From Algoriphagus hitonicola (GTDB lineage Bacteria; Bacteroidota; Bacteroidia; Cytophagales; Cyclobacteriaceae): DNA of 64,000 nt. Below, one piece after another: positions 49,350 to 64,000 of the stretch (position 1 is the first letter of the stretch; each line of letters opens with the position of its first letter). Location: assembly GCF_900113375.1 (NCBI RefSeq), contig NZ_FOPC01000015.1, positions 1 through 64,000 on the forward strand, written 5' to 3'. Both the position numbers and the translations under genes were made by a program. The notes below the pieces were generated by a model. The model had not been told where the DNA came from. It saw only the letters and a list, made by a program, of their open reading frames with translations, and made no database searches.

Positions 49350-52300
49350 TTATGAATTTGGCAAGGGAATTTCAACGATTACTGTGGTTCCTTTTCCTTT
49401 TTGACTGGTAATATTGATTTTGCCAGAGAGCAAATCAACCAAATGTCTCGTAATACTCAGACCAAGGCCCGTTCCCTCAAATTGCCGCTGATGCCCGGCA
49501 CTCTCCTGCTCAAATGGGTCAAATACCTTTTCCAAAAATTCAGATGACATCCCTACTCCCTGATCCCGAACTTCTAATTTCAACCAATTGCTGCTTACCT
49601 CCACCTTGATCCAAACACTCCCTTTCCAGGAATATTTGATCGCATTTCCCAGGATATTATTCAAAATAATTTCAGTAAATCTCCGATCAATCTGAATAAC
49701 CTGTTCTTGATCCGGCAACTCAGCCTTTAATTCCAATTTACTCTTTTTGGCAAGTACCTGAAAAGATTTCAACAAGTGAGTGGTAAATTCTCGAATCGGA
49801 GTAGGCAAATACTCCACTTCCATTTTCTTGGCTTCGATTTTAGCCATATCCAACAGGGAATTAATCGTCTGTAGTAGACGCTCTCCACTTTGAAGAATAA
49901 TATCAAGCTGAGAGATCAATTTGGGATTTTCGGCATGAGTCATCATGATATGCTCTGCTCCCCCGATGATCCCATTGAGTGGGGTACGGATTTCATGACT
50001 CACATTGGACAGCAGACTGGTTTTGAATCGGTTGGCTTGCTCGGCTTCTTCTTTTGCCTCCCGAAGTTTGGTCGCAATGGCTTTTTCCGACGATATATCT
50101 CTCAATACGGTCAAAATCACCTTTTTCCCCTCAAGGCTATCCTCTTGAATGACTCGGTTAAAGAGCGCGACATCCAAATTTCCTCTGGGTACGATGATTC
50201 GCGCTTCCATTTCAAATCCTTCCTCATCGATTTGATTCATTCTGCTTTTAAACTCATTGTAGGATGAATCCTCTCCATTTTCACTAAAAATCAACTCACT
50301 GAACTTTTTACCTGATAATTCCTCCGGGTCTATTTTTAGCCAATGAGCAATGGCGGGGTTGGCGGCTATGATCGTATCCCCATCGTAGCTCAGCGCCAAC
50401 CCGTCTTTTGAGCTATTCCATACATTTTTAAATTGCTCCTCGATAAATAACTTTGCCTTATCCGAGCGGTCAAACGCAGACTTAAGAGAACCCACTTTTT
50501 GGAATTGTCGAAAAAGCACATTGATCAAAATCCCAATGGCTACGAATACCAAGGCCACCAAAACCAAGAACCAAGCCCGGAGGTAGAAAGGCTTGAGAAT
50601 TCTAAAAGGTGTGCTCACAACCGTTTCAGAAAAGGAGCTCCCCGCATAGGAGGCTTTTAGTTCCAATTGATATTCGCCCGGAGCCAGATTCCCAAAAAAA
50701 AGCGTGGATGATTTGGGGTCCGTGATGATTTGCCAATCTTCCCCGAACCCATTGAGCCGGTAATGAATCCACAATGGCTCTGATTCATTAAATCCAACGG
50801 CCGTAAAATCTACTTCGAGAGAGTTTTGGTCATTTGGAAAACTCAACTCCTCCTGAGTTAACGTTTGATCTCCGATTTTCATTTGGCCAAGGCTGACTTT
50901 GGGACTGCCATAGGCTAGAAAATTTTCGGATTGAAAAAACATGGAAAATCCACGTACAGTACCGATCAAAAGGTTTTGATTTTCTGCTTCAATCAATGCA
51001 CCTCGATTGATTTCATTGGCGATTAATCCATTGGATTCATTATAATGAATGATCGAATCCTGCTCAATCCCATAAATCCCGTCATCCGTCCCGACCCAAA
51101 TCCGCTTTTTGCTGTCTTTCATCAGGACAAAAACCGGTCGGTTGATCAATTCATCGGTCAGAGAATAAGGCATGACTTGATCATCTTTGATGATTTTCAG
51201 TCCACTTTCAGTTCCTAAAAGCAGCCCATCTTCCGTTTCCAAAAAATCATAACCTTCGGCGATGACCATTCGATCATTTTCCACAAACGGAACCGGATTA
51301 TCCAGCTTAGAAGCCCGCATGATAATTAATCTCCCATCCGAAAGCACTGAAGATTTGCGGAGATAGAAAAAAGAATCACCTAGCAAATCCCTGATTTCTT
51401 CTTTCAGATTATTTTCATACAGCGCTTGTCCACGAGCGAAAATCGAAGAGATAAACACATCTTGTGGCCCCGTGATGATCAAGCTATCTCCGACAGTTTG
51501 CACATTGGAAATACTGACCCTAGAATCTGGTGGATAAAGCTGTATTTCTTTCTTTTCGGTATTCACCAAACCCACTCCGGCCCAATTTGCCGAAAACCAA
51601 ACCTGTCCATCTTGCCCTTGTGTAAAATTAATGATCCTTCCCGTGGGAATCCCATCTGGAAACTCATCCCGATAGAGGGTTTGGAGCTGATAGCGAGAAT
51701 AGTATTGAATGCCATTATTGAAGCCGAAAAGGTATTCCCCTTCTTTTACCCGGTGAATGGCTGTCACTTCTTCCCCCAAAAGCTCCGAACTCCAATAGCC
51801 ATAATTTTGAAAAATCAGGCTATTGATATTGACCAAACCCCGATTGGTGCTCATCCACAAAATCCCCTCTCGATCAATAAAATAATCCTGTATACTAAAG
51901 GAGTTGATAATAAACTCTAGTCCCAGTTCCAAGGGTCTACTCTGACCAAGTTTGAGCTTTCGCAAAGGAGAATTGAAATGATAAAAAACGTTTCCTTTAT
52001 CAAATCCCAACCCAAAATATTCGGTAGAGAAAAAATAATCTTTCGAAAAATTTTGATCCACAAATTCCTCTGGAAATCTCAAATCCGCACCTTTTGCCAG
52101 GTAATTTTTCCCTAGAAAATAATACTGATTGTCAGGTCCTTTTTTCACGTTTACGGGAAGTGAAGGTAGCTCTAGCCCTTCAAGCGGAATAGGCCTCAAT
52201 TCCCCCTCCCCGATCAAAAAGATCCCGTTTTCAAAAACTCCATAAACTTGATCGGAAAATTTTTCCAGCGAGTTCAATCGCCCCATGGTCTCGACCTCCC

Positions 52301-52793
52301 TGTTAATTTCTTCTGCTTCTCCATCTCCGACCCAAGTAAAAAACTGAAACTCCGTCTCCAAGAAAAAAAGCTGATCCTTTCCACTCCCGAAAGATTGAAA
52401 GTGAATATTTGAACTGAATTCTGAATCAATAGGCAGATTCAAATCAAATTCCTCCCATTCTCCATAGCCCCCTTTGAATAATTTGGGCAAACCCGAGTTG
52501 TTATAGATCCAAACCAAGCCATCTTCGGCGACGTGAAGCGAAACCTGAAAGTCAAAATTGGAATACAGCGAATCCGGCAAAGCAAAAGTCTGAAAACCGT
52601 CTGAATAAAAAACCCCTCTTGCCGTCGAAAACCACATGCGCCCTAGGCTGTCCTGCTCCATCTGAAAAATATTCTGAACCGGCAATTTGACGCCTTTGGG
52701 AACAGTATTGTACTTAAAGGATTGCCCAAATCCCAACGAAATATTTGCCAAAAAAAGCAGAGAAATAAACGACAATCGAACACGAATAACCAC
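49350..52793 (-). CDS. Membrane sensor histidine kinase with propeller and Y_Y_Y input domains
   Basis: 1147 residues. Signal peptide (1-23), then two periplasmic beta-propellers of Reg_prop repeats (about 30-640, [23 protein letters not shown]), a Y_Y_Y domain (about 650-730) and one membrane helix (about 740-762). A cytoplasmic PAS domain follows (about 795-895), then DHp with His933 ([12 protein letters not shown]) and HATPase_c ([12 protein letters not shown]). There is no C-terminal REC or AraC domain, so unlike a hybrid two-component system it needs a separate regulator; none is next to it, though the REC-kinase downstream is a candidate. The ligand is unknown. Confidence 0.94.
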
Positions 52794-52854
52794 GGAAGCG
52801 AAGTTAGAAAAAGAATTCCGATGTCAAATAACCCAGAGAATGTTAATCAATTCT

Positions 52855-52884
52855 TTTGTGAGCGGGTGGTTTCTCTTATTTTTG
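52855..52884 (+). promoter_or_regulatory. Promoter for sucD
   Basis: TTTG (52855-52858) and TATTTTTG (52877-52884) lie 18 bases apart, close to the Bacteroidota consensus. The transcription start is expected near 52891, 17 bp before the ATG. Confidence 0.62.
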
Positions 52885-52907
52885 TGCCAAACTTTAAAAT
52901 TCGAAGC

Positions 52908-53789
52908 ATGAGTGTACTAGTCAATAAAAATTCCAAGGTAATCGTACAGGGATTTACCGGGTCTGAGGGCTCATTTCACGCCCAGCAAATGATTGAATAC
53001 GGCACCAATGTCGTGGGTGGTGTCACCCCAGGCAAAGGCGGGTCAACTCATTTGGAAAGGCCAGTTTTTAATTCGGTAGAAGAAGCTGTTCAGAAGACTG
53101 GTGCCGACACCTCTATTATTTTTGTGCCTCCGGCTTTTGCCGCTGATGCCATCATGGAGGCCGCAGATGCTGGAATTCAAGTCATCATCACCATTACAGA
53201 AGGTATTCCTGTGGCGGATATGATGAAAGCCAAGCCTTACATCAAAGAGCGTGGTGTTACTTTAATCGGTCCTAACTGCCCAGGAGTCATTACTCCGGGA
53301 GAAGCTAAAGTTGGAATCATGCCGGGATTTGTTTTTAAGCCAGGACGTATCGGTATCGTGTCTAAATCGGGAACCTTGACCTATGAAGCCGCCGATCAAG
53401 TGGCAAAAGCCGGTCTAGGCGTGTCCACCGCCATCGGTATCGGAGGAGATCCTATCATCGGAACTTCCACCAAGCAAGCTGTCCAACTTCTGATGGAAGA
53501 TCCAGAAACAGATGCGATCGTCATGATCGGTGAAATCGGCGGAAATTACGAAGCAGAAGCGGCTAAGTGGATTCGTGAAACTGGAAACAAGAAACCTGTG
53601 GTAGGATTCATCGCGGGACAGACAGCCCCTCCGGGACGAAGAATGGGCCATGCCGGAGCAATCATCGGTGGAGCGGATGATACCGCTGCTGCCAAAATGA
53701 GAATTATGAAAGAAAATGGCATTCACGTGGCTGAATCGCCTGCTGAAATCGGAGCCGTGATGGCTAAGGTTTTGGGCGTAAACGCTTAA
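52908..53789 (+). CDS. sucD: Succinate-CoA ligase, alpha subunit
   Basis: 293 residues from the ATG at 52908 ([18 protein letters not shown]). A longer in-frame start at 52722 lies over the divergent kinase gene and its promoter and is rejected. It binds CoA and is phosphorylated on His248 ([13 protein letters not shown]), converting succinyl-CoA to succinate with NTP synthesis in the TCA cycle. The beta subunit gene sucC is not in the window. Ends in a strong terminator. Confidence 0.97.
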
Positions 53790-54552: not shown

Positions 54553-55728
54553 TTAAAACTTCCTGAGTTGATATTTTGCTAGGACAAGGAAATCATCAGA
54601 GTCTAATTGTTTGGCTACTTTTGTAAAATCATTATCCATCCCTTTAAATTGGTCAGATTCATTCCTTAATTTGCTCATGAGTTCGTCAGGTTGGTAGAAA
54701 CTATAGATAATATTATCCCTAAGGTTTTTCATGAGAAATTTTTCCATTCCATTATCTATGTCATTTACAAACTTGTCGATTAAAATAGTTTTACCACTTG
54801 TGAGGTGGTATATAAAATGGCCGTAAAATAATCCAGATTTGAATCTACTTGAAATCAATCCATCATCACAGTAAAGCGTAGGGATATGATATCTGTATTT
54901 ATTAATGAAATCATCTCTATTCATTAGTGAAACCAAACCATTTGCATCATCTACATATGGGGAAACCATATCAAAGGGTAATTGATGGCTTTCAAAATCA
55001 AGGTAAATTTTTTGATGGATTGATTTATTTTTTATCCAATAGATAGTGTCTAACATTGTCAGAGAAAAAAATATATCAGCTCCGAAGCTTGAAGATACCA
55101 TCGCATTTTTCTCTATCCATGATGGAGTAGAAGGAAGATCAAAAATCTTTTCTGATAATATATCATTTTCATTATTATAAAAATGGAAGGTTCCCTTTTT
55201 GTTTTTTAAAGATTCCAGATTTGGTGAAGCGTAATACGTAAAGAAAAGGGCTTTTTCATTATTATTTAGAGATAGAAATAGATTTGGTTGAAATGGAAGG
55301 GATTCTTCTTCAATGAAATCTCCTGTAAGATCAAATTTCATAATTTTATTAATACTTAATACCTCGATGAGATTTTCAAATGGGTTAAAAGCTACATCAA
55401 TAATTGAAGTGGTCTTTCCAGGCCCTTCGCCATAAAATGAAAATTCCGACAATAGTTTTCCCTTCAGATCATAAACCAAGAAATTCATGGTATTAGTGTG
55501 GTCAGCCAAAATCATTACCGAGTCTGTAATAAATACTTTCTCAGGCCTCTCCATGTAATGACTTTTAGGAAAATCTAGTAGTAGGTAATCAATTGATTCT
55601 ACAATTTCTGAAAGGTTCGATATCCCTTTTCCACCCAAAGAAATTGAGGTGATATTGTTCTGATTTTGTGGCTTAGAGCAATTAATTAGAGCCAAGATGA
55701 GGAAAGAAAAAAAGTAATTATTTCTCAT
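54553..55728 (-). CDS. Six-bladed beta-propeller lipoprotein
   Basis: 391 residues. Lipoprotein signal (LALINC, Cys17). The opening SEIVESIDYLLLDF followed by VFITDSVMILADHT and VYDLKGKLLSEF is the pattern of the Bacteroidota 6-bladed propeller (BF3164-like, DUF5128) lipoproteins. The function of these is not known; they often sit beside short secreted peptide genes. Here a 66-residue Cys-rich peptide gene lies 56 bp upstream on the same strand. Markedly AT-rich. Confidence 0.85.
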   Translation of the reverse strand: MRNNYFFSFLILALINCSKPQNQNNITSISLGGKGISNLSEIVESIDYLLLDFPKSHYMERPEKVFITDSVMILADHTNTMNFLVYDLKGKLLSEFSFYGEGPGKTTSIIDVAFNPFENLIEVLSINKIMKFDLTGDFIEEESLPFQPNLFLSLNNNEKALFFTYYASPNLESLKNKKGTFHFYNNENDILSEKIFDLPSTPSWIEKNAMVSSSFGADIFFSLTMLDTIYWIKNKSIHQKIYLDFESHQLPFDMVSPYVDDANGLVSLMNRDDFINKYRYHIPTLYCDDGLISSRFKSGLFYGHFIYHLTSGKTILIDKFVNDIDNGMEKFLMKNLRDNIIYSFYQPDELMSKLRNESDQFKGMDNDFTKVAKQLDSDDFLVLAKYQLRKF

Positions 55729-55784: not shown

Positions 55785-55985
55785 TTACATTCCGCATGCT
55801 TCCTCGCAAGGAATTTGCTCCTCAACTCCGCATGGATCCGTACCGACTAGTCTACATTTTGTCACTGGAACCCCACAATAACATTCCTCTATTGCAACAT
55901 AATAGGCAGAATAACCTTTTGTTGGAACAAAAGAAAGCGCGAACAGGCCCAACACAAAAACTGTTGTGATTTTAAAATTTTTCAT
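55785..55985 (-). CDS. Small exported cysteine-rich peptide
   Basis: 66 residues. A clear signal peptide (1-27, MKNFK...TKGYSA) leaves a mature part of about 39 residues with six cysteines (35, 37, 44, 52, 60, 64), enough for three disulfides. It starts EECYCGVPVTKC. The arrangement with a downstream propeller lipoprotein recalls the NVEALA-type short proteins of Bacteroidota, though the NVEALA word itself is absent. Function unknown: a signal, toxin-like or surface peptide are all possible. The reading frame is supported by its signal peptide, a conventional start and its place at the head of the set. Confidence 0.72.
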   Translation of the reverse strand: MKNFKITTVFVLGLFALSFVPTKGYSAYYVAIEECYCGVPVTKCRLVGTDPCGVEEQIPCEEACGM

Positions 55986-56430: not shown

Positions 56431-58875
56431 CTACTCCCCTTGCAAAATAGATTCAATCATCTCTTCAACATCTTTTAAGTGATACTGCATAATACCTGAA
56501 CTGTATCGAGCACTTGCAGAACCGGCTGTTGATTGAATAAACTTCAACTCAGCACGAACTGCGGCGCTGATATCAGACCGATTGCTGGCATCCTGCTCCA
56601 TCAGGGCAACTAACCTTTCGACATGAGCCCGTTGAAGATTTCTTCGGAAGGCATCAATTGGTTTTGTCCCGGAAAGCTCCGACCACAGTCCCTTTCGTAA
56701 ATCACTCAGCATAGCAGTCAAGGTGTACGCTTCATTCCCATTAAGGGCTTCATTTTCGATCATTCGTTCCAAACGGTCTCTCCTCAGCAGATTCCCAAGC
56801 ATTCTGGACTGCATGGAGCCAATCGCATCCACCGCACCACTAGGTTCGATGTTGCTGAGAATTTCCTTTTGCAGCAACCATTCCGGGGTGGTAAATACAT
56901 CTTGGATCAAGAAATCCATGGATTCTTTTTGAGATGCTTTGGCGATTGGCTGATAAGTGAATCCTTCCTGATCAGAGGTCTTCAATTCCTCATATACCCC
57001 TCCAACATTAGTGACCACATGCCCTGCAAATCGGGACCACACTCCAATCAATTCTCCATAAAGCTCTTCCAAATCAGCATATCCTTCACCCGGTTTTGTG
57101 GTCCATTTGGCTAAATTGGGAGCTACGATTTTCAGGTTAGCCAATCCATACCGGGTGGCTTTGACCGGATCATTTCCGACCGATTCTGTTTGAGAGCTTG
57201 GATCAAAGGAATTTGAACCCCCGAAAAGGTATTTAGGATCACCTGCTTTTTCGGCTATCCATTGATTCAGGGTTTCCTTTTCTGCTTCTGGAGAATCGGC
57301 ACCTGGAATATATCGATAGCCCCAGTTGATTGCGTACTCATCATAAGGTCCCAACATTCTCACCCAGCGAACTCCTTCATCACCTGGTTGAGCGACATAA
57401 TTGTAGCGGGTGTAATCCATGATCGTAGTAGCCAATCCCCACTTTTGGGTAAAAGTTGCCGATCGAAGGGAATCCGTAGGATAAGCAAAGGAGGCTTTCA
57501 TATTATGAGGCAAACCCAAAGCATGTCCTACTTCATGAGAAATCACACGTCGCATCATTTCGCCGATTTCGGCTTCAGGAGTATCTAGCGTTCGTGCTGA
57601 AGGGTTGGCAGCCCCAGTTTCGAGAAGGTAGCGATTTCTGTAAGATCGAAGGTGGTTATGATACCAGATAATATCACTTTCGATGATTTCACCTGAGCGT
57701 GGATCAGAAACACTTGGCCCAACTGCATTTCGGGTAGTCGATGCGACATACCTTACCGTAGAGTATCGAGCATCTTCAGGGCTCCAATCCGGATCTTCCT
57801 CTTTGGTCGGTGCATCTTTGGCAATGATGGCATTTTTGAATCCGGCAGCTTCAAATGCCACCTGCCAGTCCTCAATGCCTTGTCTGAAATAAGGTCTCCA
57901 TTTTTCCGGGGTAGCCGGATCCAAATAATACACAATCGGCTTCACCGGCTCGACCAATTCTCCTCTCGCATACGCTTCAGGATCTTTGGGTTCCAATCTC
58001 CATCTTCGGATATAGGTTTTGACATCAGACTTAAGCGCGTCAGATCCATAGTCAATCTGACGAACTGTAAACCAGCCTACCCGCGGATCGTGAAGTCGAG
58101 GCTGCATGGGAACTTCAGGCAGCAAATACATGGATTGACTCATTTCCATTGAAATCGTGCCGGATTTGGAATTAGAGGGAGGGGAAGTTGCATTATAGGT
58201 CATGTCATGACGCACTTCGATGTTTTCCGGATAGCTTTCCATTCTGCTGATGTAGCTTCTAGCTCTGTCCAGGTTTCTGACTTTGTAATTGGTTCTCATC
58301 CCGACAGAAAGTCCACTGAGTGAAGGATTGTCAGAAAGAAATAAATCACTGACCTCAATCAACGCTGCAGTGGAATCCGCATTAAACCCTTCGATCGAAA
58401 ATGCGGCTAAAATAGGATCGTAATTATTGGCTGAAACAGACAGCTGAATCGGCAGGGTATCATTGGCTACACTTCTAAAGGAAATAGACCTTAAATGGAT
58501 TTTATTTTCGACTCTCGACCATCGGATGACCTGCTCATTGGTTTTGGATCCAGCATTCATATATCCTCCACCTAATCCTTCCGCGATTTTTGAAATCCGA
58601 CTCACCAGAAGCATATCGGTATTTAACAATTCAAAGGGAATTTCATAATACCGTTTATCACCTACGGTATGGACTTTGAATAATCCATCATCCGAAACCG
58701 CTTCAGCGGTGACAATGTCCTCATATTTTTTAAATGGGCTCTTTTTTTCAGGCTTTGCTGCCTGAGTGGTTTGAGCAGGAGAAGCTGCGGCATTTCGCTT
58801 ACTCTTTTTTTGACCGTAACTCACCCCTGAAATCAGCAGGAACAAGACCAACAATAGTTTGGAAATATTTTTCAT
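56431..58875 (-). CDS. Zinc-dependent metalloprotease (DUF5117/DUF5118 family)
   Basis: 814 residues, signal peptide (1-21). A DUF5118/DUF5117-type N-terminal half (SPFKKYEDIVT, FKVHTVGDKRYYEIP) precedes the zinc motif HEVGHALGLPHN at 447-458 (His447, Glu448, His451, His457), in the style of metzincins. The C-terminal half is helical. It is predicted to be secreted or periplasmic. Substrates are unknown. It stands alone with a terminator. Confidence 0.92.
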   Translation of the reverse strand: MKNISKLLLVLFLLISGVSYGQKKSKRNAAASPAQTTQAAKPEKKSPFKKYEDIVTAEAVSDDGLFKVHTVGDKRYYEIPFELLNTDMLLVSRISKIAEGLGGGYMNAGSKTNEQVIRWSRVENKIHLRSISFRSVANDTLPIQLSVSANNYDPILAAFSIEGFNADSTAALIEVSDLFLSDNPSLSGLSVGMRTNYKVRNLDRARSYISRMESYPENIEVRHDMTYNATSPPSNSKSGTISMEMSQSMYLLPEVPMQPRLHDPRVGWFTVRQIDYGSDALKSDVKTYIRRWRLEPKDPEAYARGELVEPVKPIVYYLDPATPEKWRPYFRQGIEDWQVAFEAAGFKNAIIAKDAPTKEEDPDWSPEDARYSTVRYVASTTRNAVGPSVSDPRSGEIIESDIIWYHNHLRSYRNRYLLETGAANPSARTLDTPEAEIGEMMRRVISHEVGHALGLPHNMKASFAYPTDSLRSATFTQKWGLATTIMDYTRYNYVAQPGDEGVRWVRMLGPYDEYAINWGYRYIPGADSPEAEKETLNQWIAEKAGDPKYLFGGSNSFDPSSQTESVGNDPVKATRYGLANLKIVAPNLAKWTTKPGEGYADLEELYGELIGVWSRFAGHVVTNVGGVYEELKTSDQEGFTYQPIAKASQKESMDFLIQDVFTTPEWLLQKEILSNIEPSGAVDAIGSMQSRMLGNLLRRDRLERMIENEALNGNEAYTLTAMLSDLRKGLWSELSGTKPIDAFRRNLQRAHVERLVALMEQDASNRSDISAAVRAELKFIQSTAGSASARYSSGIMQYHLKDVEEMIESILQGE

Positions 58876-59176
58876 AGAATTTTAAGTAAAATCAATAAGA
58901 AAAGTAGAGTTGAAGTCACTAGAAAACAAGCATACATATATGATCGGTAAATTCAGTGTCTAGTTTCATTGCGTTGCTTCATGAAAAAAAGTTTTCCTGA
59001 TCCTATTTAGTTACACGATTCTCTAGGCAGAGAATTCTTACGAATATTTGATCAAACCATCCATCAAGATTTTGTCAATCGAATATTTGATTTAACTAAA
59101 AAAATGTTTTCTTGTTCCTAGTTATAGATACCATTTGTTAAGCAGGTAGATTTACCCGCAGTTAATCATTTCAATC
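58876..59176. other. Divergent promoter region with direct and inverted repeats
   Basis: 301 AT-rich bases with no gene. CGAATATTTGAT occurs at 59041 and 59080 (39 bp apart), and GATTCTCT...AGAGAATTC forms an inverted repeat at 59017-59037. Both are nearer the 1261-residue gene than the metalloprotease and may bind a regulator of it. Confidence 0.45.
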
Positions 59177-62100
59177 ATGAAAAACCCTGAATCCATTATC
59201 TCATCTAACCTTGAATTCCTTGACCGACAAAAAATAATTTCTGCAAATCAGCATCGACTATTTACCATTGATTCTATTCGTGACACCTTTATTTTAGTAA
59301 AAGATCGCGAATTAGGAGAGACTTTCCCCTATCGGATCTCCGAACTTAATGTCGGTGACCCGATCATCTTAAAAATCAATCGAGTCATACCGGGAAGAGT
59401 AGAGATGGAAGATTCTGTTTTGAACTTTATGCAAAACAGGGAAGTGAACCATTTTAAGATTTTAAGAAACGAATACCCTTACCTTCATTTACAAAAAGCG
59501 GATTCAAGTTTTTCATTTCTCTGCCGCACAGATCAGCCTGTCCATAAAAACAAAAAGAAATTGGACCTTCGGGTTAATGGCTTTGATCTAGTAAGAAATG
59601 TTCCGCTCATTGAGGAATCAAACTTCCTCTCATCACATTCCGACCCTTTGTTATCCACTTTTGATTTTGAAAAGAAAACTCGGGTAAAGGTAAAAGATCA
59701 AATCCATTCAGAAGAATCGATACAGCTATTGATTTCCCACGAGGATAAAGAGTTTTTCGTAAAAGGGTACACGCACCAGGTTAACGATAATTCTATCGAG
59801 GAGCTTGACCTTGTTCTCCGGCTCGAAAATGGAAAGTTGACTTTAAATCAAGATCGTAATTCCCTAGTAAAAAGCAGATATCAAAAGGAAACCTTGGATT
59901 CCTTTAAATTTTTAAGATGCGAATACAGCCCTGAAAAGGAAAAAGAGGTGCTTTTTTTCGAAGATGATTTTGGTTATGTACATTCCATCCTTGCTCCTGA
60001 CTTTTTAAATCAAGATCAAATCAATGAATTTGAAAAAGGAAAATTCTATAACCTATGGATTAAAGATATCGCAGAAAATGGATTTATGGTACTATTTATC
60101 AACCATTTTCGCACAAACAAAAACTCCTTTATCTCTCCTGAAAGACTGTTCACTGAGCTTGGAATCCCAGAATACCTAGAGGAGGAATTCCCTAAAATCG
60201 AGGCCGAATTCACCACTAACCCATATTTCAACAATCCACTTTATAAAAATCCCTTTGACTCACTCAAGAAGAAGGAAAACCTCTGGATCCTGTCTTTTGG
60301 TAATTGCTTGGATGTTTTTGTAGACAATCTAGTTTTTTTAGGAAGACCAAAGGAAGCAATTAAGATTTTGGATTTATTGATAAAAATTGAGCACTGGCTA
60401 CTTGGAGCCAATGATTTTTTAGAAAGTTTCAAAACGGAAAACCGCCAAAACATCATCGATAAGGCCAATGAGCAAATTGACCTAGGAAAGGATAAATTAA
60501 AAATCTTGGAAAAAATTAATGATGGCAATCCCACTGCAATCATTGAAGAACTCATTCGGATAGCGGAGTCGGCCGACCAACCCAGTATCCGAGACTTACA
60601 AAAAATTCAATTTAAATTTTTTGCCCTACCAACAGATCAGGTTTCAGGCACCAAAGATCTATTACTTCTGATGGTCAGATTAGTCCAAAAAGTCCCAAAT
60701 GACATCCATTTTCATTTTTCTCTTTGTAAAACCCTGGAAAAGCACATCATACATTTCCGAAATCAATTGAATCTCACAGGAAGAGAACGTTTTTGGGAAA
60801 AAGACCAGCTCCATCAGTTAAAAGAGAAGCTTTTTATTTCCATTCAGCTATTGGCCTTACAGATTAATCTTGACTCCAATTCCAGCAACCAAGAGCTACA
60901 AGTTCATCGTTCGGCTCGAATCTGTCGATTTGTCGCTTTGATTTATTGGGATAAAGACCTTGGATTTGAATGGATCAATCGCAGTGTAAAAATCATTACC
61001 GGCGAACATATCCTAAAAATCCCAATTGAAAAAATTGAAAGTCTTCCCGAAAATCTGGACTGGTTAAGTGCTATCATCAATCGGATGAAAAACCTATCAT
61101 CACCTCGATTATACTACAAAAACGGCGGTGTAATTCTCAAAGAAAACCAAAACTGGAGAGTTTTAGGACCTGCATACCAAGCTCAAATCACCTTTGAACC
61201 CAATTACCCTACCCATCAAATCGGAAGCTACTTCGATGGATTGATTGAGGTCCACACCCTTGGAAAACCAAAGTTTTCATTTAATGATAGCTCAAGCGCG
61301 AGTCAATTGGGAGAACATTGGAAAGCATATTACCAAGATAACGCGACAGACGCTTCCTTTAAATTTCTCAAAAAGGGAGAATTAATTACCGTCGAATTCC
61401 AGAGCATATTATCAACAAATCCCAATCTGGGTTTTGTGAAAATTCTCGATCCGGGGACTTTCACACAAGGTGGGATTCATATACTTCAAGTCTCAAGCGT
61501 CCACATCAAAGGACTAAATGGAATCCTGTCACCAGGAGATCGCTTCAAAGCTCGCTTCATTAAATCAGTTGATAAAAAAGCCAGAATTTCCTTGAAAGAA
61601 GATCTCGTCTTACTAATGAAAGACAAATCCGAACAAATCACCCAGACGATCTTCAAAGTACTCATGACTAATGGGACGATAGCCTTTGGAATAACCAAAG
61701 AAGGACTCTATGCCAGTTATTTATTTGAAAATGCAGCTACTGAACCTCAAGAAAGTCATTTTCATTATTTCTACCCAGAAGCCGATCAATCACACAAATA
61801 CGAATATGTCCACGGAACGCTTGGACAAGAGGTCGATACCTTTTTTGATGAAAAAAAGGTTTTACGAAAATTCATTGAGAAAAACCTCCTCATAAGTCCT
61901 AAAACAGAACTACCGCATAAGGAAGATTCTATTGTTTATAACTATGTCCAGGAAATCATTTGGAGTTGCGAGACGATTTTAAACTTTCCGAAAATATCGG
62001 ATTCTACCAAATTGGCCTATATCTATTTAGCAAAACTTCTCTCCTCATTATTAAAAAATTCCAAATCATTTTATTTAGATGAAATGGCCAAGTACTTTAC

Positions 62101-62962
62101 TTTTTTGATGAAAATAAAAGAAGAGGGAATCCTATCGGCGGTAGAAGACATAAAACCTATCTCAGAAGAAACGATACGGAATTTTCCAAAAGTCCAGAAA
62201 ATCCAAAAAATATATGATGCTGTAAGCTTTTATCCCAAAGCTGAATCAAGCGAGGGATTTTTGGACAAAATCAAAAACTCCTCCTCTTCGGACGAGTCCG
62301 ATATGATCGAATTTTTGATGGGAATGTGGATCCTTCAAAAACAAAATGCAATAAACCAGCGATTGATCCAGCGAATATTTCACTCCAAACTTTCTATTTT
62401 GGATACTGATACCAGCAGTCAACTGATTGAAGATGAGCTTCAAATCAGCGAAAGGCAATCCATCACAAAAGTAACTCCTTTGAATCTCGGTAAAGAAAAT
62501 AAAAACCAAGAATTCAAATCTTCAATTATCTATGATCCAGAGTCCAGTTCACCTAACCCCGAAATCCAAGAGTTTAATATTCTAAAGACGATAGCAGGCT
62601 TCCTCAATGCCTCGGGTGGTGACTTATACATTGGTGTAAATGACCAAGGAGATATCATTGGCTTGGCTAAGGATTATAAGTTTTTTGGTGAAAAAACCAA
62701 TGCTGACTCATATGAAAGACACCTCCGAAAACTGATCATTCGAGATTTTAATAAGGATATAAGCTCACAAATCGAAATCCAAATCATTGAATCCGAAAAA
62801 GTAGAATATGCAAAAATTCAAATCCCAGCCTACCATGTCCCCGTTTCCCTAAAAAACAGATTTTTCCAAAGGCAAGGAAATGAAACGCGTGAAATTGTAG
62901 GACAAGATTTGATTCTATTCATGGAACGAAAATTCAAATCCACAAACCAACCCTCGGATTAA
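59177..62962 (+). CDS. Large multidomain protein with C-terminal Schlafen/AlbA_2 domain, function unknown
   Basis: 1261 residues, no signal peptide or membrane helix, so cytoplasmic. The N-terminal two-thirds has no family I recognise, but several short beta-rich segments with an S1/OB-like rhythm recur (VGDPIILKINRVIPGRVEM, KGKFYNLWIKDIAENGFMVL, PGDRFKARFIKSVDKKARI). Helical stretches lie between about 400 and 620. The last part, about 1108-1251, is an AlbA_2 (Schlafen-type) domain: NQEFKSS, TIAGFLNASGGDLYIGVND, IIGLAKD. Such domains bind or cut nucleic acids, often in regulators and defence proteins. Monocistronic, AT-rich, with its own repeat-bearing upstream region. A nucleic-acid-binding stress or defence role is inference. 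Confidence 0.82.
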   Translation: MKNPESIISSNLEFLDRQKIISANQHRLFTIDSIRDTFILVKDRELGETFPYRISELNVGDPIILKINRVIPGRVEMEDSVLNFMQNREVNHFKILRNEYPYLHLQKADSSFSFLCRTDQPVHKNKKKLDLRVNGFDLVRNVPLIEESNFLSSHSDPLLSTFDFEKKTRVKVKDQIHSEESIQLLISHEDKEFFVKGYTHQVNDNSIEELDLVLRLENGKLTLNQDRNSLVKSRYQKETLDSFKFLRCEYSPEKEKEVLFFEDDFGYVHSILAPDFLNQDQINEFEKGKFYNLWIKDIAENGFMVLFINHFRTNKNSFISPERLFTELGIPEYLEEEFPKIEAEFTTNPYFNNPLYKNPFDSLKKKENLWILSFGNCLDVFVDNLVFLGRPKEAIKILDLLIKIEHWLLGANDFLESFKTENRQNIIDKANEQIDLGKDKLKILEKINDGNPTAIIEELIRIAESADQPSIRDLQKIQFKFFALPTDQVSGTKDLLLLMVRLVQKVPNDIHFHFSLCKTLEKHIIHFRNQLNLTGRERFWEKDQLHQLKEKLFISIQLLALQINLDSNSSNQELQVHRSARICRFVALIYWDKDLGFEWINRSVKIITGEHILKIPIEKIESLPENLDWLSAIINRMKNLSSPRLYYKNGGVILKENQNWRVLGPAYQAQITFEPNYPTHQIGSYFDGLIEVHTLGKPKFSFNDSSSASQLGEHWKAYYQDNATDASFKFLKKGELITVEFQSILSTNPNLGFVKILDPGTFTQGGIHILQVSSVHIKGLNGILSPGDRFKARFIKSVDKKARISLKEDLVLLMKDKSEQITQTIFKVLMTNGTIAFGITKEGLYASYLFENAATEPQESHFHYFYPEADQSHKYEYVHGTLGQEVDTFFDEKKVLRKFIEKNLLISPKTELPHKEDSIVYNYVQEIIWSCETILNFPKISDSTKLAYIYLAKLLSSLLKNSKSFYLDEMAKYFTFLMKIKEEGILSAVEDIKPISEETIRNFPKVQKIQKIYDAVSFYPKAESSEGFLDKIKNSSSSDESDMIEFLMGMWILQKQNAINQRLIQRIFHSKLSILDTDTSSQLIEDELQISERQSITKVTPLNLGKENKNQEFKSSIIYDPESSSPNPEIQEFNILKTIAGFLNASGGDLYIGVNDQGDIIGLAKDYKFFGEKTNADSYERHLRKLIIRDFNKDISSQIEIQIIESEKVEYAKIQIPAYHVPVSLKNRFFQRQGNETREIVGQDLILFMERKFKSTNQPSD

Positions 62963-63018
62963 TGGTAGTAAAAGGTGGTTAATTTGTTTTTTGTAGCCTG
63001 TCCAATTAGGATTTTGGA

Positions 63019-63026
63019 TAACTTTG
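63019..63026 (+). promoter_or_regulatory. -7 element for the ABC-F gene
   Basis: TAACTTTG fits TAnnTTTG, 20 bp before the start codon. The nearest TTTG upstream (62990-62993) is 25 bases away, slightly far. Confidence 0.45.
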
Positions 63027-63046: not shown

Positions 63047-64000
63047 ATGATTTCAGTTGATAATGTGACTGTGCAGCATGGCGGCACAGCTTTATTTAGT
63101 AATATTTCCTTTGCCATCAATGACAGCGACAAGATCGCCTTGATGGGAAAAAACGGTGCGGGTAAATCTACCTTGCTTAAAATTATTGCTGGCCAGTCCA
63201 GGCCTACTTCCGGTGCGGTATCGGCTCCAAAAGATTACGTAGTCGCCTACCTACCCCAGCATTTGTTGACGAGTGATGACTGCACTGTCATGGAGGAAAC
63301 CTCCAAAGCATTTGCTTCCTATCTGGAAATGAAAACAGAAATAGAACGGATCAATGAGGAACTGACTGTCCGCACAGACTATGAGTCGGAAGAATATTAC
63401 AAACTCATCGAAAAGGTCTCCGAACTCAGCGAAAAATTCTATGCGATCGAGGAAATCAATTATGAAGCCGAGGTTGAAAAAGTACTCTTGGGCTTGGGAT
63501 TCGAGCGAGAAGATTTGATTCGTCAGACTTCTGAGTTTTCCGGCGGATGGCGGATGCGAATTGAGCTAGCCAAAATCCTACTCCAAAAACCGGATTTGAT
63601 TTTACTCGATGAGCCGACCAATCATTTGGATATCGAATCGATTCAGTGGCTGGAGGAATTTTTGATGAACAAAGCCAAGGCGGTGGTCGTGATTTCTCAC
63701 GACCGTGCATTTGTGGACAATATTACTACCCGGACCATCGAGGTGACAATGGGTAGGATTTATGATTACAAAGCCAAATATTCCCATTATTTGGAGCTGC
63801 GAAAAGAGCGTCGAGAACAGCAGCAAAAACATTACGAAGAACAACAAAAATTCATAGCCGACACCACCCAATTTATCGAGCGCTTTAAAGGCACTTATTC
63901 CAAAACCTTGCAAGTTCAGTCCCGGGTAAAAATGCTCGAAAAACTGGATATCGTAGAAGTGGATGAAGTGGACTCTTCTGCGCTGAAGCTCCGCTTTCCT
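63047..64000 (+). CDS. ABC-F family ATPase (partial, cut by window end)
   Basis: The frame opens at ATG 63047 (MISVDNVTVQHGG) and is still open at the last base, giving 318 codons. Walker A is GKNGAGKST, the signature is FSGGWRMRIELAK, Walker B is LILLDEPTNHLD, and then comes the ABC-F linker (YSHYLELRKERREQQQKHYE). There are no membrane segments. ABC-F proteins act on the ribosome, in translation or antibiotic resistance. The second ATPase half lies beyond the window. Confidence 0.95.
   Translation, partial: MISVDNVTVQHGGTALFSNISFAINDSDKIALMGKNGAGKSTLLKIIAGQSRPTSGAVSAPKDYVVAYLPQHLLTSDDCTVMEETSKAFASYLEMKTEIERINEELTVRTDYESEEYYKLIEKVSELSEKFYAIEEINYEAEVEKVLLGLGFEREDLIRQTSEFSGGWRMRIELAKILLQKPDLILLDEPTNHLDIESIQWLEEFLMNKAKAVVVISHDRAFVDNITTRTIEVTMGRIYDYKAKYSHYLELRKERREQQQKHYEEQQKFIADTTQFIERFKGTYSKTLQVQSRVKMLEKLDIVEVDEVDSSALKLRFP

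Follow-up and report, generated by a model that had tools for sequence, protein, structure and literature searches.

What might a bacterium do with a solitary gene that joins a Schlafen domain to more than a thousand residues of protein that match no family in the libraries searched? The question is raised by a locus in Algoriphagus hitonicola, near the end of a stretch of 64,000 nucleotides (hereafter the window; NCBI RefSeq assembly GCF_900113375.1, contig NZ_FOPC01000015.1, positions 1 to 64,000 of the forward strand). The gene lies on the plus strand at 59177..62962, with its ATG at 59177 and a stop that ends at 62962, and encodes a protein of 1261 amino acids (aa) in which a core of predicted OB/S1-like and helical blocks is followed by a Schlafen AlbA_2 domain. 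We favor the hypothesis, with a probability of slightly less than one half, that this is a one-gene effector of conflict or stress, acquired horizontally, consisting of an RNA-sensing scaffold and a Schlafen-type endonuclease, and possibly defensive.

The frame is a real gene. It comprises 1261 codons with zero internal stops, in agreement with a preliminary description of this DNA made from its letters, and a full-length homologue that is 53% identical overall and 51% identical over the core is encoded by Algoriphagus boritolerans DSM 17298. Across the 1260 aligned codons the two copies differ at 473, 306, and 793 first, second, and third positions, respectively (dN = 0.40; dS was not computable), and it is on the homologue and on these codon-position differences that we base the assignment. 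The protein has no signal peptide, as previously described, and no membrane helix (the highest Kyte-Doolittle mean over 19 residues is 1.45, with none above 1.6), and a motif check of its sequence found no Walker A motif.

The C-Terminal Schlafen Domain

The only domain of the protein that exceeds its Pfam threshold is SLFN_AlbA_2 (PF04326) at residues 1107-1239 (E 4.4e-15; 56.7 bits vs. a gathering cut-off of 25.3), which bears out the earlier assignment of an AlbA_2 domain to the C-terminus, and PHROGs gives a clear match for this part only. The domain as we delimit it covers residues 1104-1253 (62486..62935, plus strand); the A. boritolerans domain scores 54.8 bits in Pfam, and the two are identical at 104 of 150 positions. 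By segment, the two proteins are 69% identical in AlbA_2, 42-62% in the segments of the core, and 28% in the linker that joins core and domain.

A profile built from ten bacterial AlbA_2 domains hits PDB chain 5yd0 (E 5.5e-13) and aligns residues 218, 223, and 261 of that chain with E1107 (62495..62497), E1112 (62510..62512), and D1156 (62642..62644) of the window protein, all on the plus strand. Read through a numbering offset of 13, these three acids are the equivalents of E205, E210, and D248 of rat SLFN13, and the E-x4-E spacing is identical in SLFN13 and in the window domain. None of the three varies among the ten aligned domains, that is, the window domain, its A. boritolerans counterpart, and 8 of 12 other translated AlbA_2 frames, four having been left out. 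According to excerpts of the SLFN13 report, the active site consists of E205, E210, and D248, cleavage is diminished by mutation of any one of them, and E205A and E210A are inactive (PMC5862951). For human SAMD9L, part of the text of PMC11221667 states that E198 and D243, which correspond to two of the three acids and were mutated jointly, are required for translation arrest and HIV restriction. Because the AlbA_2 domain of the window protein carries SLFN13-type catalytic acids, it is more likely to be an RNase than a passive binder.

Other AlbA_2 proteins were seen along the way. The genome of A. hitonicola encodes three more (L001, L002, and L003), all of which keep the three acids, and L003 is a frame of 481 codons with a long part after AlbA_2. 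Among 58 near genomes searched, the best AlbA_2 match outside the homologue family, 30-31% identical, is protein L006 (1225-1992) of a congener (G019), which differs from the window protein in having 255 aa and, by eye, two N-terminal hydrophobic stretches in place of the core; it is perhaps a membrane-anchored Schlafen domain. A solved AlbA_2-type chain in the PDB, "CbCash" (9ylu), is likewise picked up by the bacterial profile (E 3.1e-4), and a literature search by name (titles and abstract openings, with bioRxiv covered as preprints in PMC) found no paper about it.

Architecture and Distribution of the Core

The core matches no family in Pfam, NCBIfam, PADLOC, or PHROGs, and neither these libraries nor the PDB sequences gave a whole-length match to a characterized family, which supports the earlier remark that the N-terminal architecture matches nothing familiar. 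A second homologue (G868), recovered with a two-row profile from another genus of the same family (E 2.5e-68), has 1158 aa with about 60 extra N-terminal residues, is 22-23% identical, and has no AlbA_2 domain according to Pfam. Because this third member possesses the core without AlbA_2, the core of about 1080 aa is a separate module, unclassified in the libraries used.

Carriers of the core are rare. The genomes searched were drawn at the level of genus, family, order, and phylum, and the draws overlap, so that their counts cannot be added. Apart from the window gene itself, a search with the whole protein in 58 near genomes recovered only fragments that cover the AlbA_2 end. Residues 1-1095 gave three matches among 390 genomes of the order, namely the window gene, the full-length A. 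boritolerans homologue, and a piece that we ruled out as a homologue, which is the S1 end of polynucleotide phosphorylase (PNPase), read through stops. With a three-row profile, two of the three matches tallied among 72 genomes of the genus are real carriers (the window and A. boritolerans) and the third is again PNPase; the same profile found two carriers among 255 genomes of the family (A. boritolerans and G868), two among 380 of the order, and one in the two genomes from the genus of G868. The two-row profile gave two matches among 395 genomes of the phylum and four among 295 of the family, three of them real. Among 72,556 plasmid and 50,697 phage records, none matched residues 1-1090. Scans with a few short peptide patterns, which can miss distant relatives, detected nothing in viral contigs on either of two attempts, and in genome contigs they detected nothing at first and A. 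boritolerans alone on the second attempt.

Our model of the domain order, of low-to-moderate confidence for the OB units, runs from a beta block through a helical block, a second beta block with S1, a second helical block, and a variable linker to AlbA_2. The preliminary description had proposed structure prediction and a fold search, and the resulting N-terminal model (mean pLDDT 54.8) contains four OB/S1-like units between about residues 25 and 308, which we regard with low-to-moderate confidence as OB-like: unit 1 at residues 25-79 (59249..59413), unit 2 at 93-146 (59453..59614; modeled poorly), unit 3 at 167-225 (59675..59851), and unit 4 at 239-308 (59891..60100). Helical block A is predicted at residues 321-640 (60137..61096). 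The second beta block covers residues 641-905 (61097..61891) and is aligned in all three homologues, its beta character having been judged by eye and from a C-terminal model (residues 640-1261, mean pLDDT 34.9) that is unusable. Helical block B, at residues 906-1085 (61892..62431), is assigned from secondary structure in a low-confidence model; it is 58% identical in A. boritolerans and aligned in the G868 homologue. The linker, residues 1086-1103 (62432..62485), is identical to that of A. boritolerans at 5 of 18 positions. All of these features are on the plus strand. The description of the N-terminal two-thirds as OB/S1-like with a helical middle is thus retained in part: OB-like units, an S1 domain, and a helical block at 321-640 are predicted, but the OB segments do not fill two-thirds of the protein, and helical and beta blocks alternate.

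The S1 domain, residues ~731-812 (61367..61612, plus strand), was placed by its matches to PNPase S1 domains and by a profile score. The similarity to the S1 profile at residues ~753-807 scores 33.5, compared with no more than 18.6 in any of 60 shuffles and a likewise lower score for the reversed core, at a probability of 40%, and searches with the core also pull out the S1 domains of PNPase in two genomes. S1 matches at ~732-810 in NCBIfam are all below threshold, and neither the whole protein nor ten pieces from the three homologues reach the PF00575 (S1) cut-off in Pfam. We consider an S1 domain at ~735-810 to be supported at the level of sequence. The top two Foldseek matches of the N-terminal model are ribosomal protein bS1 and a tandem nucleic-acid-binding-domain protein (3go5), which we take to be CvfB-like. 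Barrels of the OB/S1 type usually bind RNA or single-stranded nucleic acid, and helical blocks act as scaffolds. The predicted S1/OB barrels of the core are a feature in common with bS1, 3go5, and PNPase; none of these is known to have a Schlafen domain or long helical blocks.

A Solitary Gene at Two Unrelated Sites

Alignment to a gene-free site delimits a one-gene segment of 4062 bp in the window (58957..63018), the left match ending at 58956 and the right one beginning at 63019. Its flanks are a met-zincin gene (DUF4953/DUF5117; 56431..58875, minus strand) and an ABC-F ATPase gene (63047..64000, plus strand, continuing beyond the end of the window), which are also the neighbors of the gene-free site. 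The ABC-F gene is found in 67 of 71 genomes of the genus, and we examined the 30 best loci. At 3 of the 29 loci other than that of the window the met-zincin gene adjoins at 156, 157, and 240 bp without the gene, and at the remaining 26 there is no met-zincin within the 1.5 kb upstream that was examined. The nearest gene-free genome, whose ABC-F and met-zincin genes are 98.5% and 94.5% identical to those of the window, has an unrelated, non-aligning 132 bp in place of the segment. Because these 132 bp occupy the site in the relative, a simple insertion between adjacent bases does not account for the event.

The A. boritolerans homologue is located elsewhere, between HlyIII and DUF5009 genes. 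A HlyIII gene was detected in 33 of the 71 genomes, and 30 of the loci were inspected. DUF5009 and HlyIII stand in the same order, 65-78 bp apart and with no insert, at 5 of the 29 other loci; they are adjacent in reversed order at 13, including that of the window's own genome, and 11 have no DUF5009 within the 1.5 kb examined. No integrase frame was seen in the inserted segment of either species. The gene is thus a solitary accessory gene at two unrelated sites, each gene-free in relatives. A homologue search of the N-terminal part with its gene neighbors, as proposed earlier, yields this same picture, with carriers in 2 of 72 genomes of the genus, and the single-gene shape first described for the locus is confirmed by the two gene-free sites and the patchy presence. 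Against the suggestion that nearby housekeeping genes make a general role equally likely stands the nearest relative, which keeps the same neighbors without the gene.

The composition of the gene is low in GC (0.370): of 25 other window ORFs picked by hand for measurement, 24 lie at 0.399-0.467 and one at 0.315. The third-position GC of the gene (0.374) is inside the range of these ORFs. The upstream region had been described as repeat-bearing; it does contain a 17-nt repeat in two copies (59041-59057 and 59080-59096; 88%) and shorter pairs, but the stretches upstream of the two homologues are dissimilar (score 17, reached by 173 of 200 shuffles), and because of this dissimilarity we give the repeats no weight.

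Elsewhere in the window, the ORF with the lowest GC (0.315) of the 26 measured encodes a six-bladed beta-propeller protein of DUF5128 (54553-55728, minus strand). Beside it lies a gene for a cysteine-rich, secreted-looking peptide of 66 aa (55785-55985, minus strand), possibly another recent insertion there. A sensor histidine kinase of 1147 aa with two-component-regulator propeller repeats (49350-52793, minus strand) stands beside a succinyl-CoA-ligase-like gene (52722-53789).

Function and Alternative Explanations

Under the hypothesis that we favor, the core of about 1080 aa, built from OB/S1 barrels and helical blocks, would be a scaffold that senses RNA or ribonucleoprotein and restrains the C-terminal Schlafen nuclease. 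The trigger for the core would be a phage product or an abnormal state of translation, and the Schlafen domain, the output module behind the variable linker, would then cut tRNA or rRNA by means of E1107/E1112/D1156 and a metal ion, and translation would stop. The identity of the active-site residues has good support. We infer the nuclease activity, its tRNA or rRNA substrate, the sensing role of the core, the autoinhibition, and the phage trigger, and with them an antiviral role.

Schlafen nucleases are antiviral in mammals. By profile, the window domain resembles the mammalian Schlafen RNases SLFN11/12/13/14, with E, E, and D in the SLFN13 register. SLFN13 has a pseudo-dimeric N-terminal Schlafen domain in the partial description that we cite, whereas the window protein has one AlbA_2 domain behind its core; Pfam found no second Schlafen lobe, although it might miss one that has diverged as far as the SLFN N-lobe. 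A further precedent is SAMD9L, which excerpts of PMC11221667 present as a very large multidomain protein in which translation arrest and virus restriction depend on acids of AlbA_2. Partial accounts of the SAMD9/SAMD9L family, found in animals and bacteria, likewise describe a large single protein with AlbA_2, helical repeats, and an OB fold. The window protein differs from this family, which is defined by a STAND-like P-loop NTPase, in having neither a Walker A motif nor a Pfam match to an NTPase family, in its reversed domain order, and in its several predicted OB units, and no sequence relation was shown. Its OB-like units are N-terminal in the model, whereas SAMD9, in the same accounts, has a C-terminal OB fold and a TPR array; the helical blocks have no TPR match in Pfam, and there is no Pfam match to a Sir2-like domain, the SAMD9 version of which is described as a divergent variant. 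Bacterial Schlafens have been presented as phage defenses, with proposed tRNA cleavage and abortive infection (Taboada et al. 2025, a preprint, as related in part of PMC12839542). These proteins share with ours a prokaryotic Schlafen RNase domain accompanied by a presumed sensor (excerpts of PMC12839542). The BREX-associated Schlafens described there carry a fused minimal histidine kinase and wHTH and are encoded in BREX loci, whereas the window gene is solitary and its core unclassified. Finally, AlbA_2 is N-terminal in the RecG-like helicase/regulator type, whereas here it is C-terminal and followed by nothing long.

Several points weigh against the effector hypothesis. Neither the window protein nor its two homologues match a defense model in PADLOC-DB 2.0.0, and no defense system was recognized among the scanned neighbors. 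A one-gene segment with patchy presence fits accessory immunity, and any other accessory function fits too. The invariant triad is, as far as the alignment tells, a family signature that has not been lost here, and a match to it is by itself no proof of catalysis. The two lines of evidence for S1 overlap, PNPase domains being included in the profile. Furthermore, the core-only homologue indicates that the core is separable from the nuclease and may have a task of its own.

This last observation, which implies that the core is useful by itself, also favors the alternative that survives best, although we judge it unlikely: an accessory protein that regulates translation or RNA turnover by binding RNA and has no part in defense. 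Its S1/OB core would bind mRNA or ribosomes in the manner of ribosomal S1 or CvfB-like proteins, and AlbA_2 would be an additional domain for processing or binding RNA. The S1 assignment and the top structure matches to bS1 and the tandem-domain protein point the same way, but a regulator of general function ought to occur in most relatives, not in 2 of 72 congeners at two unrelated sites. It seems less probable still that AlbA_2 merely binds DNA or RNA and that its three acids are a structural signature of the family. The invariance of these acids in 10 of 10 domains, some with long, regulator-like C-terminal parts, would fit such a binder, and a 2018 Argonaute paper and a 2017 SAMD9 paper label the domain as DNA-binding in the parts that we cite; the register, however, is exactly that of SLFN13, and mutating these acids abolishes the function of SLFN13 and SAMD9L in the excerpts referred to above. 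A decaying or selfish orphan gene, carried as the passenger of an unknown element and without present function, would be rare (2 of 72 genus genomes), low in GC (0.370 vs. 0.399-0.467 in 24 of 25 ORFs), and devoid of partner genes in its segment, as this gene is, but we consider it very improbable: neither Algoriphagus copy is broken anywhere in its more than 1260 codons, the substitutions between the two follow a coding-type pattern, and the triad and S1 region are conserved.

Implications

The AlbA_2 domain is already known; what appears to be new, judging from the searches above, is its partner, the unclassified OB/S1 plus helical core, and our literature search found no description of this domain architecture in titles or abstract openings. 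A bolder proposal, which is possible yet doubtful, is that the core, with its tandem OB/S1 barrels and two helical blocks, represents a new family of RNA-surveillance scaffolds that reads translation or phage RNA directly. In Algoriphagus it would be joined to a Schlafen tRNase in a single polypeptide, as an NTPase-free, single-gene counterpart in bacteria of SAMD9/SLFN immunity, and the homologue without AlbA_2 would pair this sensor with a different output. An OB/S1 plus helical scaffold would suggest sensing of RNA or the ribosome in place of the NTPase switch of SAMD9, and the two natural sites with and without the gene, together with the nuclease-less core homologue, would make sensor and effector separable by experiment.
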